From: Candidatus Staskawiczbacteria bacterium
GTDB taxonomy: Bacteria; Patescibacteriota; Minisyncoccia; Minisyncoccales; Staskawiczbacteraceae
Direction of reading: 5' to 3'
NCBI GenBank assembly: GCA_026395295.1
Contig: JAPLYZ010000004.1
Span: 1-42,454, forward strand
DNA: 42,454 bases
Both the position numbers and the translations under genes were made by a program. The notes under the pieces are model-generated. The model was given only the letters and a program-made list of their open reading frames with translations. It was not told where the DNA came from and searched no databases. Shown here piece after piece: positions 31,519 to 34,816 of the stretch (the stretch's first letter is position 1; the number at the start of each line of letters is the position of its first letter).

Positions 31519-32313
31519 GTGGATAACCCAACGCCTAAAATTAAAGAGTTTTTACTGGATCTTTTCTTCCCAAAGTTTTGTTTGGGGTGTCAAAAAGAAG
31601 GCACATATTTATGCGACGACTGCCGGGCGCTTTTAGACATTGCAGAGTTTGATTATTGCCTTTGCGAAACAAAACCCATTAGACTCGCTTGCTTCGATGC
31701 GACTCAGCACAAGTCGCTTGCTCAGGGCAAGCCTCAGGCAAAATGCGACCGATGTAAAGAAAAAGAACTTTCCGGGCTTTATTCTGCCCTGCCCTATAAA
31801 GATAACCAGCTAACCAAAAATTTAATCTACCAATTTAAATATCAACCCTACCTGAAAGACTTGGCAAAAACCTTGGCAAGCATTTTGATTGAACATTTTG
31901 TGCTGGCGAAAAAAAATACCGATGAGATTTGGGAAAATTCAATTTTGGTTCCAATTCCTCTTGATAAAAAGAAATTGAAAACCCGCGGATACAACCAGTC
32001 AGAAGAACTGGCAAAAGAGCTTTCAAAAATTTTACTAATTCCGGTTGTTTCGGATATTTTAGTAAAAGTAAAAAATACAAAACCGCAAATGGAACTGACA
32101 AAAACAGGAAGAGAAAAAAATCTACAAGGCGCTTTTGCCGTCAAACCCGCCTTCGCTTCTGAGCTTCGGCGAAGCAAAGTCTTTTTAGTTGACGATGTTT
32201 ACACCACCGGATCTACAATGCAAGAGTGCGCAAAAGTTCTGAAAGAAGCCGGAGCAAAACAAGTTTGGGGCATAGTCCTGGCCCGCGAAGAACTGCATTT
32301 TACCTTGCCATAG
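31519..32313 (+). CDS. comF: ComF-family phosphoribosyltransferase-like protein
   Basis: 264 residues from a GTG. The N-terminal zinc finger has C21/C24/C32/C35; a second Cys set (C47, C49, C76, C79) follows. The phosphoribosyltransferase domain holds the PRPP motif VFLVDDVYTTGSTM. ComF is needed for DNA uptake in many naturally competent bacteria, and the gene is back-to-back with the pilus operon. Two palindromic segments are present: 31699-31738 (residues about 61-74, splitting the second Cys set) and 32151-32175 (AFASELRRSK). Both look like inserts compared with typical ComF. No Shine-Dalgarno precedes the GTG. Confidence 0.9.
   Translation: MDNPTPKIKEFLLDLFFPKFCLGCQKEGTYLCDDCRALLDIAEFDYCLCETKPIRLACFDATQHKSLAQGKPQAKCDRCKEKELSGLYSALPYKDNQLTKNLIYQFKYQPYLKDLAKTLASILIEHFVLAKKNTDEIWENSILVPIPLDKKKLKTRGYNQSEELAKELSKILLIPVVSDILVKVKNTKPQMELTKTGREKNLQGAFAVKPAFASELRRSKVFLVDDVYTTGSTMQECAKVLKEAGAKQVWGIVLAREELHFTLP
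31699..31738 (+). repeat. Palindromic segment inserted in frame in comF (site 1)
   Basis: Overlapping hairpins GCGACT/AGTCGC and GCTTGC/GCAAGC. The GCTCAGGGCAAGC part recalls the repeat at 37565-37588. It encodes TQHKSLAQGKPQA in the zinc-finger linker. Confidence 0.5.
32151..32175 (+). repeat. Palindromic segment inserted in frame in comF (site 2)
   Basis: CTTCGC (32151-32156) pairs with GCGAAG (32169-32174), with a GCTTC/GAAGC hairpin nested. It encodes FASELRRS just before the PRPP-binding strand, where ComF proteins normally run straight into the hydrophobic LVDD. Confidence 0.45.
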
Positions 32314-33466
32314 CCATGGCTTGTTCGGTGAGTATTTGGATAAGCTGGGTGATGAGAGCTACGAGTTGTTGTTTGATTTGGACGATTAGCTCGGCTTTAG
32401 CTTGTCCGCCTAATTTTTGCTGAGGCAGGTCTTGAGATGGCTGGTAGTTGGGGTTGATTACTTCTTGAAAGGTGGAGGGTTGTTGAGATTGTTGTTGACT
32501 GATGGAGTTTAGAAACAAGACTCCTCCGGCTGATCCATTGTCAACGAAGTTAGCCTGAATGGTGTGGGTGGCAGTGACGTTAGTGAAGGTGTATGAGGTT
32601 TGTGCTCCGACTGACGAGCCGTCTACTAAAACATCTGTGATGTGGCAACCTGTGTTGGGAGTAATGGTGAAGGTTTGATTGGCATCGTATGTGACCGAGG
32701 TGGCGGTACTGGGGCTGATAGTCCCGCAGCTACTTCCTGTTGATACTGACGGGGTGATAATTCGCGGATACCACGCTGTGGTTGGTTTGTAAGTTGTTTG
32801 ATTATGGTCAAACTGTATCCAGCCTGCGTTTTCAGACCAAGCGTAACCTGTGAAGTTGCCTGAAGAGTCTATTGTGACTTGTGAGTCTGTTGGGTGAAAG
32901 TTAATCCAACCTATGCTTTCTCCCCAAGCGTAGCCTGAGAGATTGCCATGACCATCGTTGACTATTCCCCAGTTGGTGGAAGTTGTATTTGTGGCTCCGG
33001 CTACTCCATCGTAATCAAGCTGGATCCAACCGATATTCTCTAACCATAGATAACCAGTGAGACCGGCTGTGGTAACTGTCACCCCTCCATCAGTGGAATT
33101 GAAGTTAGCCCAGCCGACGTTTTCTCCCCAGCCGTAGTTAGTGGTGTTGCTTGTGGCTGAAGCGAGGAATGGGAATGCGAAGAGAATGGATAAGGTGAAA
33201 GTTATTAACCCCGTTAGAAATAGGGAACGTTTTAGACGATTCCTAAGATAGCGCTTTCCCATTCCAGATTTTAAATATTTTTCTCTCATAGTTGCGTCTT
33301 GTTGATTGTTACAAGCTTCGTAATAAATTATTTCAAAAGGACCTCTGCCTTTGGTTGATAACACCTCGTTGTTATTATGTTGTCTAAAACGTTCCCGTAG
33401 ATTATGCGTAAATCCTGTGTACCACTTGTTATCCTTTTTACTTCTTAAAACATAATTATACATCAT
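32300..33466 (-). CDS. GIY-YIG nuclease module fused to a secreted repeat protein
   Basis: 388 residues. Residues 1-83 are a GIY-YIG endonuclease-like domain (NYVLRS ... WYTG, the catalytic Arg in NLRERFRQH, and Glu in MREKYLK). The basic end of that domain runs straight into a hydrophobic stretch and signal-peptide-like cleavage site (LTGLITFTLSILFAFPFLASA). Four GW-type repeats follow (YGWGENVGWANF, WLENIGWIQL, YAWGESIGWINF, YAWSENAGWIQF), then a divergent InlB B-repeat-like domain (about 250-312) and a QL-rich helical tail typical of CPR surface proteins. At least nine N-x-S/T sequons. An inner ATG at 33262 could start a plain secreted protein. The tail converges on comF and overlaps it by 14 bases. 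Confidence 0.65.
   Translation of the reverse strand: MMYNYVLRSKKDNKWYTGFTHNLRERFRQHNNNEVLSTKGRGPFEIIYYEACNNQQDATMREKYLKSGMGKRYLRNRLKRSLFLTGLITFTLSILFAFPFLASATSNTTNYGWGENVGWANFNSTDGGVTVTTAGLTGYLWLENIGWIQLDYDGVAGATNTTSTNWGIVNDGHGNLSGYAWGESIGWINFHPTDSQVTIDSSGNFTGYAWSENAGWIQFDHNQTTYKPTTAWYPRIITPSVSTGSSCGTISPSTATSVTYDANQTFTITPNTGCHITDVLVDGSSVGAQTSYTFTNVTATHTIQANFVDNGSAGGVLFLNSISQQQSQQPSTFQEVINPNYQPSQDLPQQKLGGQAKAELIVQIKQQLVALITQLIQILTEQAMAMAR
33208..33222. repeat. Left 15-bp inverted repeat around the GIY-YIG module
   Basis: ACCCCGTTAGAAATA, the exact reverse complement of 33469-33483. On the coding strand it reads through LFLTG of the signal-peptide-like segment. Confidence 0.75.
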
Positions 33467-33468
33467 TT

Positions 33469-33483
33469 TATTTCTAACGGGGT
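33469..33483. repeat. Right 15-bp inverted repeat around the GIY-YIG module
   Basis: TATTTCTAACGGGGT, just before the start codon at 33466. With the left copy it frames a 276-bp unit that is the GIY-YIG domain and little else. Confidence 0.75.
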
Positions 33484-33513
33484 AAAGATTTATTTTTTTG
33501 TTGACATGAGTTT

Positions 33514-33544: not shown

Positions 33545-34816
33545 TTATTGAGCGACGACGACCCATATTGGAGATAAGCTACTATTAACAGTACTGTTGT
33601 TTCCTTTACCACCAGCTGGAGATAATATCAACGCGGAAAGAGCACTGCTGGGATATGGTTCAGCAGACCATAAGTATAAAGAATTAGTCCACGCGTTGGT
33701 TCCATAAAGCAAACTCGCATCACCTCCAAATGTTCCTTTCATTGCTTGCACTAATTCGCTGGTAATAGGAATTCTCGAAGTTCCTCCAGCACTATACCAA
33801 GAAATATTGAGTCTATCATAATAATCGTTCATCACTCCATCATTAGTAAAACTATGAGTGCCGTTTATTCCACTAGTTAAATCTTTTATTCCGTCCCAAG
33901 CGTCAGCGATAGACAAAGCAGAGGGAGCATTGTTCACATAACCATATTGTTTGCCAGTTCCTCCGGCATTCGTCCAAGTGCTTCCGCCAGAATCAGGACC
34001 ACAACCAGTTAAAGTTGTTGAATAAGCATTTGTGGCATCTTTATCCCAGACTGAACCATCAGGGAAAACTAGATCACCTCTATCGGCTGTGCAATTCCCT
34101 AAGTTGGTACTGTTAGCGCTAACTACTGCATATGTCTGTAAGGCACTTTGATCAAAGTTTGTTTGATTATTAGAACCATTCCATCCACCAGGAGAACCAA
34201 CATAGGAAGCAGATGCTTTCAAAGTAGCATTGTCACTCGTAGTAGTACAAGTTGTCGCACCAGCACAATATGTGTATGTTATGCCATTCCACCAGTTTGC
34301 AGCTCCGATTTCTATTGCCCAATTTAAGTTTCCATTTATACCAATCCAAGAGCCAGTTCCGTTTTTAGTCCATGTGTAAGTAGTCCCTGTGTAATTTCCA
34401 GTTGTCCCAAAGATGCTAGTCCCACTCTTGATGTTTGTAGCTTGCAGATTTGTGTCTCCGGCAGTAGCGGTTTTGGAACCAGAATAGATGCCATTTGGAA
34501 TAGTGAAGGTTAGTAAGCCATTGCCTCCTGTGACATTAGAGCCAGCGCTTGGAATAGAATTGTATATATCATCTAGTGTGTGCATTGTGGAACCGGGAGC
34601 TCCTGAGGGAAAATTGAATGAAGTGTTCTTTGTGGCAGAAGTGCCATTTGCTAGTTTTTGATAGATTTGTTCTAAGGTATACATTCTGCCTGCGCTGGTG
34701 GGAGAACCGGGTGAATCAATGTTCCCTGCGTATACAAACAAAGACACCATGGCGTAGGTTAAAGATACACTGCAGATTGCAATTCCAAGAGTGCGAAGGA
34801 GTTGTTTGTTGAACAT
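33545..34816 (-). CDS. Secreted surface protein with a DUF1566-like C-terminus
   Basis: 423 residues. A signal peptide or anchor at 1-30 (LRTLGIAICSVSLTYAMVSLFVYAG). The next part has MYTLEQIYQKL and MHTLDDIYNSI, then NIKSGTSIFGTTGNYTG; these short motifs are common in CPR exported proteins. The C-terminal half (WNGITYTYCAGATTC ... YLWSAEPYPSS) resembles DUF1566/fimbrial Lcl-like domains. The sequence contains 15 N-x-S/T sequons in 423 residues, unusually dense. An extended -10 box lies 34-39 bases upstream. Function unknown; a cell-surface adhesin-like protein is inferred. Confidence 0.7.
   Translation of the reverse strand: MFNKQLLRTLGIAICSVSLTYAMVSLFVYAGNIDSPGSPTSAGRMYTLEQIYQKLANGTSATKNTSFNFPSGAPGSTMHTLDDIYNSIPSAGSNVTGGNGLLTFTIPNGIYSGSKTATAGDTNLQATNIKSGTSIFGTTGNYTGTTYTWTKNGTGSWIGINGNLNWAIEIGAANWWNGITYTYCAGATTCTTTSDNATLKASASYVGSPGGWNGSNNQTNFDQSALQTYAVVSANSTNLGNCTADRGDLVFPDGSVWDKDATNAYSTTLTGCGPDSGGSTWTNAGGTGKQYGYVNNAPSALSIADAWDGIKDLTSGINGTHSFTNDGVMNDYYDRLNISWYSAGGTSRIPITSELVQAMKGTFGGDASLLYGTNAWTNSLYLWSAEPYPSSALSALILSPAGGKGNNSTVNSSLSPIWVVVAQ

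Follow-up and report, generated by a model that had tools for sequence, protein, structure and literature searches.

The window, i.e. the whole 42,454-nucleotide stretch of DNA analysed here, contains a 274-bp unit that is almost certainly a mobile element with terminal inverted repeats (TIRs) and 4-bp target-site duplications (TSDs). Judging from the comparisons described below, its GIY-YIG protein likely moves the element, and the best explanation overall is probably an autonomous, insertion sequence (IS)-like element with a GIY-YIG nuclease as its sole product and candidate mobiliser. With reasonable, though not strong, confidence we propose that it represents a new class of autonomous DNA transposon of less than 290 bp, in which a stand-alone GIY-YIG protein serves as transposase on folded DNA and one helix of the fold (helix 2) is formed by the gene's own codons. 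At 274 bases, the element could rank among the smallest known transposons that move themselves. Short, gene-less copies are probably MITE-like derivatives with the same ends, some of them in frame in proteins.

A first-pass annotation of this DNA had described 15-bp inverted repeats that frame a GIY-YIG module, with a reading frame continuing into a GW-repeat surface protein. Both were recovered as described: ACCCCGTTAGAAATA at 33208-33222 (plus strand) returns as its reverse complement at 33469-33483 with 0 mismatches, and the frame runs on. Missing from that annotation was a second, nested 15-bp inverted repeat, which pairs 33223-33237 with 33382-33396. The outermost A/T of each framing 15-mer is part of the flanking tetranucleotide and lies outside the element proper, CCCC...GGGG (33209-33482, 274 bp). 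The window copy has the following features:

33209..33482, minus strand: whole mobile element CCCC...GGGG, coding copy of 274 bp, with a layout common to dozens of coding copies
33209..33222, unstranded: terminal inverted repeat CCCCGTTAGAAATA, adjoining the 3' end of the gene (repeat comparison)
33469..33482, unstranded: terminal inverted repeat TATTTCTAACGGGG (as read on the plus strand), upstream of the gene (repeat comparison)
33205..33208, unstranded: flanking tetranucleotide TTAA (YNNR), imperfect target-site duplicate (sequence and flank comparison)
33483..33486, unstranded: flanking tetranucleotide TAAA (YNNR), imperfect target-site duplicate (sequence and flank comparison)
33209..33466, minus strand: GIY-YIG nuclease ORF, 86 codons up to ...SLFLTG, which is encoded by the terminal repeat (PF01541, E 6.8e-14; model pLDDT 92)
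32300..33466, minus strand: read-through ORF, GIY-YIG plus GW-repeat secreted protein, 388 aa (ORF and Pfam)
33260..33262, minus strand: internal ATG, candidate start of MGKRYLRNRLKRSLFLTGLITFTLSILFAFPFLASA (sequence alone)
33382..33396, unstranded: helix 2 strand inside the ORF, codons of (R)ERFRQ (covarying and conserved in 42 aligned elements)
33223..33237, unstranded: helix 2 partner strand directly inside the terminal repeat, codons of RLKRSL (covarying and conserved in 42 aligned elements)

The ORF on the minus strand (33466-32300) begins immediately inside the right arm, and its residues 2-67 match the Pfam family GIY-YIG (PF01541, E 6.8e-14). The GIY-YIG frame has no stop codon within the element; it crosses the left arm (codons ...CTA TTT CTA ACG GGG, encoding LFLTG) and continues as a signal-peptide-like, GW-rich protein. 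The flanks TTAA and TAAA are not an exact duplicate. They have TAA in common, the three bases adjoining the element, and could represent a TAAA duplication minus one base.

These ends recur throughout the 903-kb genome, where the 10-mer CCCCGTTAGA occurs 25 times and the reversed-pattern control once. All but one of the 25 occurrences (24) fall into 12 inverted pairs spanning 29-281 bp, a pairing that is far above chance genome-wide; the 13-mer CCCCGTTAGAAAT occurs nine times. Bases next to the 10-mer vary jointly within a pair (AAAT, AAGT, AGGT, AAGC), and the conserved TIR consists of CCCCGTTAGA plus three to five such co-varying bases. Two of the 12 pairs carry a GIY-YIG gene, the second one lying at G000:C8:5953-6233. 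The first-pass annotation had raised the concern that the repeats might be unique and absent from other GIY-YIG genes; they frame this second gene and dozens more in other genomes. The remaining ten pairs are gene-less and 29-129 bp long, and the short copies have the form of MITEs or Rickettsia palindromic elements, i.e. a non-coding palindrome with a TSD. Exact 4-bp direct repeats flank eight of the 12 pairs. The settings of the copies (a tRNA leader, murB, a gene start, intergenic DNA) have only YNNR in common. At the coding copy C8:5953-6233, the element end together with the duplicate (GGGG|TGAA) would give a GTG start codon to a pgk-like gene. The genome also contains two close GIY-YIG paralogues (..FEKYLKSSSG..; L010 at G000:C14:6382 and L013 at G000:C20:11744) that have no framing repeats.

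The duplications were quantified on pairs from many phyla. Of 203 unique pairs, 97 were flanked by exact 4-bp direct repeats, compared to 13.5 expected (maximum 25) when the right flanks were re-paired, and identity over five flanking bases was found in 0 of 203, which fixes the length of the duplication at 4 bp. The target context is R-YNNR-Y, with YNNR at 159/172 and 160/172 flanks (~92%) versus 47 and 43 in shifted controls (~26%). In over half of the coding copies the two flanks differ, mainly as TTCA...TAAA (28/172), which a plain 4-bp TSD does not explain; a search further out for direct repeats in this class gave none. Speculatively, such flanks could arise if the cut is staggered and the overhangs match imperfectly. 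An IS200/IS605-like guide-sequence model was also considered for the fixed TTCA...TAAA flanks, but is unfit for the general case because copies with identical arms have different tetranucleotides.

Five copies, one of them with a GIY-YIG gene, have empty sites in genomes of the same genus. At the tRNA-Tyr gene, ten relatives read GGGCGTGTGGCTGAG and the own genome reads GGGCGTG[40 bp]CGTGTGGCTGAG, where the start of the tRNA is restored by the element's GGG. The murB copy is a 23-residue in-frame insertion that is missing from the relatives and from the aligned PDB MurB chains. Also empty in relatives are the sites of an 80-bp copy, a 29-bp copy and the GIY-YIG copy C8:5953-6233 (TSD TTCA), which precedes the pgk-like gene (named by inspection). 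For the window copy, a DNA-level search of the genus for an empty orthologous site gave no match outside its own genome. Multi-copy TIRs (12 pairs in the own genome, many elsewhere), a TSD of fixed length and empty sites at five loci together agree with the structural definition of a DNA transposon or insertion sequence, and the term 'transposon-like element', which the first-pass annotation had offered next to 'homing', is well chosen.

The 10-mer CCCCGTTAGA was present in 27 of 38 relatives, several of which have many pairs. Within the phylum the distribution is patchy, with a short-hairpin copy in 13 of 287 genomes. In GTDB species genomes, at least 111 stretches have the ends at a span of 258-288 bp. 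Host lineages among the matches listed comprise CPR lineages, Omnitrophota, Bacteroidota, Desulfobacterota, Nitrospirota, Planctomycetota, Elusimicrobia and others, and 79 of 99 unique units of 255-295 bp contain the GIY-YIG motif. A tree of related proteins mixes host phyla, many of its forks being unresolved with so short an alignment. A phage, plasmid or virus origin was rejected, as the window protein had no match in 50,697 phages or 72,556 plasmids and the coding-size element pattern none in IMG/VR; a defence system was rejected as well (no PADLOC match). Four families of the order contain a conserved non-coding element of ~130 nt with CCCCGTTAGA-type ends and a strong internal stem-loop near the 3' repeat (L209, L217, L218, L220, L226, L229, L244).

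A coding element is about 262-288 bp long, and its sole product is a stand-alone GIY-YIG nuclease of ~86 aa. In the window copy, GIY-YIG is the only Pfam match in the element's ORF, there is no room for another gene, and, tested as a classical IS, the element has no transposase of the DDE, HUH, tyrosine or serine type. The GIY-YIG catalytic site comprises Tyr, Tyr-x-Gly, Arg, His and Glu. The window protein belongs to PF01541, with Tyr, Tyr-Gly, Arg and Glu of the catalytic domain present; across the 79 coding copies, 77 frames are intact and Y, Y, G, R, H and E of the site are nearly or fully invariant. The AlphaFold2 model (pLDDT 92) is closest to UPF0213 (1zg2) and Slx1 (7cq2), followed by I-TevI. 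The last codons of the ORF are the terminal repeat itself (..SLTG / ..LTG). The gene itself lacks a stop codon and usually takes TAA or TGA from the flank; 54 of 79 copies have a stop as the first codon of the flank.

Coding copies have, in addition to the terminal helix, a second helix of 13-15 bp between an ORF-internal segment and the segment inside the 3' repeat. In both own coding copies, the segment directly inside the 3' repeat is a 15-nt complement of an ORF segment, at the same place and with different sequence. Over the 79 coding copies, the longest complementary run averages 11.0 nt versus 5.7 with a shuffled tail. An alignment of 42 elements gave 94.4% paired cells, 117 compensatory cells and a covariation score of 0.268 for the two helices; when the partner was slid by 1-3 columns, 31-54% of the cells were paired (maximum 53.8%), with at most 22 compensatory cells and a covariation of at most 0.102. 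Helix 2 pairs the codons of the DLRKRF motif with those of the C-terminal LKRFL segment. In the subfamily ..NYLTG there is no helix at this position.

Other GIY-YIG subfamilies have ends of their own. Within the order, 20 of 66 GIY-YIG loci were framed by inverted repeats with a score of 12 or more, compared to 0.8 expected when ends were drawn from different loci; about 46 of the 66 genes have no framing repeat. The repeat type tracks the protein subfamily: CCCCGTTAGA occurs with ..GMGKRYLKNRLK, the repeats CCCCGTAG(TAG)AATTTC, usually between TATG repeats, with ..TSQGRRLLKRRLKEYLY, and CCCCC(C)ACC-like repeats with ..NLKxxxxAYxQLKxRIKNSL. At the level of sequence, this co-diversification of repeat type and protein subfamily argues most strongly for a nuclease that acts on its own ends. 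The CCCCGTAG-type GIY-YIG elements are probably inserted at the start codons of downstream genes; TATG is seen on both sides of L282, L300, L303, L297 and L310. A different subfamily with inverted repeats of 18-26 bp (CCCCGCACACAATTTGC / CCCCCTCCTAACTTTGCT) is found in two genomes (L294, L362), where it sits at the 5' portion of the gene for RNase P RNA (RF00010, E 6.6e-20 and 2.4e-30) with the flanks CAATCG...AGGAAA in both. At L280 and L281 (CCCTGTGAAATAA / CCCTGTTAAATAA repeats), the outer flank (TTCA, TTAA) complements the segment just inside the repeat, which is reminiscent of a guide sequence.

Slx1 is a nuclease that cuts branched DNA. A reasoned guess, which we favour moderately, is that the GIY-YIG protein of the element acts on folded single-stranded or cruciform DNA. 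With its fold close to Slx1, it would recognise the folded ends in either form and cut them and the YNNR target, the cuts being staggered by 4 nt; the 4-bp duplication would then be left by the host's repair and ligation. The short copies would be moved in trans by the same enzyme. To our knowledge, strand transfer is not a known activity of GIY-YIG enzymes.

It is also conceivable, if unlikely, that an unrelated host or transposon enzyme moves these TIR/TSD elements in trans and that the GIY-YIG gene is a captured passenger. In six relatives that are rich in short elements (G008, G016, G019, G025, G036, G037), no coding copy with these ends was detected, which leaves room for a different mobiliser, and no GIY-YIG transposase was described in the literature searched. 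However, no other gene was found between matching ends: larger TSD-matched pairs, examined as composite cargo, only span neighbouring elements. The GIY-YIG gene moreover fills the element, its codons form the terminal repeat and helix 2, nearly all of its frames (77/79) are intact, and the other GIY-YIG subfamilies have different inverted repeats, all of which speaks against a passenger.

The two-helix fold, conserved on the coding strand, could also point to an element that acts as a folded transcript and moves by reverse transcription of an RNA intermediate, in the manner of EN+ Penelope-like elements, which pair GIY-YIG with a reverse transcriptase. We consider this improbable: the element contains no reverse transcriptase, and G.U is not commoner than A.C on the sense strand of helix 2 (27 vs 25 and 13 vs 10). 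Since the two mismatches are about equally common, selection on helix 2 appears to act on DNA rather than RNA. That the unit is a homing endonuclease gene (or degenerate intron) and spreads through cleavage of a single cognate allele, the 'homing' option of the first-pass annotation, is very improbable despite the GIY-YIG domain and a weak similarity to the group I intron endonuclease TIGR01453 (25.2 bits vs a cut-off of 56). Homing requires one fixed target, and the insertion sites are diverse and unrelated apart from YNNR, with short duplications and inverted-repeat ends; a group I/II intron or known RNA family was rejected, with no Rfam match at the 12 own-genome elements. That the coding unit is immobile and merely framed by unrelated palindromes such as regulatory hairpins, as the simple hairpins of the shortest copies might suggest, is refuted beyond reasonable doubt by the TSD statistics, the empty sites (one for a coding copy) and the recurrence in many phyla.

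Prokaryotic transposable elements are sorted by a few transposase chemistries (DDE, HUH, tyrosine, serine, Cas1). A GIY-YIG-driven element, if confirmed, would add another one, at a size below that of usual IS, and, together with related GIY-YIG subfamilies that have ends of their own (CCCCGTAG..., CCCCCCACC...), it would constitute a superfamily across many bacterial phyla. IS200/IS605 and REP/RAYT systems likewise have a small enzyme that recognises folded ends, in their case for single-strand transposition, and non-autonomous relatives that share the ends; the present elements differ in having true inverted repeats, 4-bp duplications and, in the predicted role, a GIY-YIG enzyme in place of HUH. 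Free-standing GIY-YIG homing endonucleases of the I-TevI type have the catalytic fold in common with the element's protein, but the element lacks a fixed target and has its own inverted repeats and target duplications. UPF0213 and Slx1, the nearest solved folds, are not known as mobile. We found no description of the element in a full-text literature search, whose scope excluded ISfinder and preprints. In-frame Rickettsia palindromic elements have been described alongside other prokaryotic MITEs (PMC10969869). They are likewise short, multi-copy and palindromic with inverted ends, some of them in frame in genes; here, by contrast, a GIY-YIG gene, the candidate mobiliser, lies within coding copies that share the ends of the short ones, and the elements occur in many phyla with a 4-bp YNNR target. 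GIY-YIG and ORF-less insertions have also been reported in CPR rRNA genes (PMC11270868), for which no mechanism is given; the terms 'inverted repeat' and 'palindrom' are absent from the main text. Identity with these insertions is a lead only, as a motif scan for elements in rRNA genes gave none among the copies collected here. If our reading is correct, the GIY-YIG enzyme would supply the missing mobiliser for palindromic elements that lie in proteins, possibly also for the CPR rRNA insertions that are still unexplained, would help to explain the high frequency of small GIY-YIG genes in reduced CPR genomes, and would offer a natural 274-bp model for structure-guided DNA integration.

Homologues of the GW protein in the genus start with a Met and signal peptide of their own and lack a GIY-YIG domain. 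The anatomy of the window locus thus fits the earlier suggestion that a nuclease cassette was inserted where another gene starts. The frame enters the secreted-protein gene because no stop follows the element, and the fusion to the surface protein is probably accidental. From the sequence, MGKRYLRNRLKRSLFLTGLITFTLSILFAFPFLASA, starting at the internal ATG (33260..33262), is a putative signal peptide donated by the element. Next to the element, a minus-strand ORF of 423 aa (window 33545-34816), without a Pfam match, has an N-terminal hydrophobic segment.
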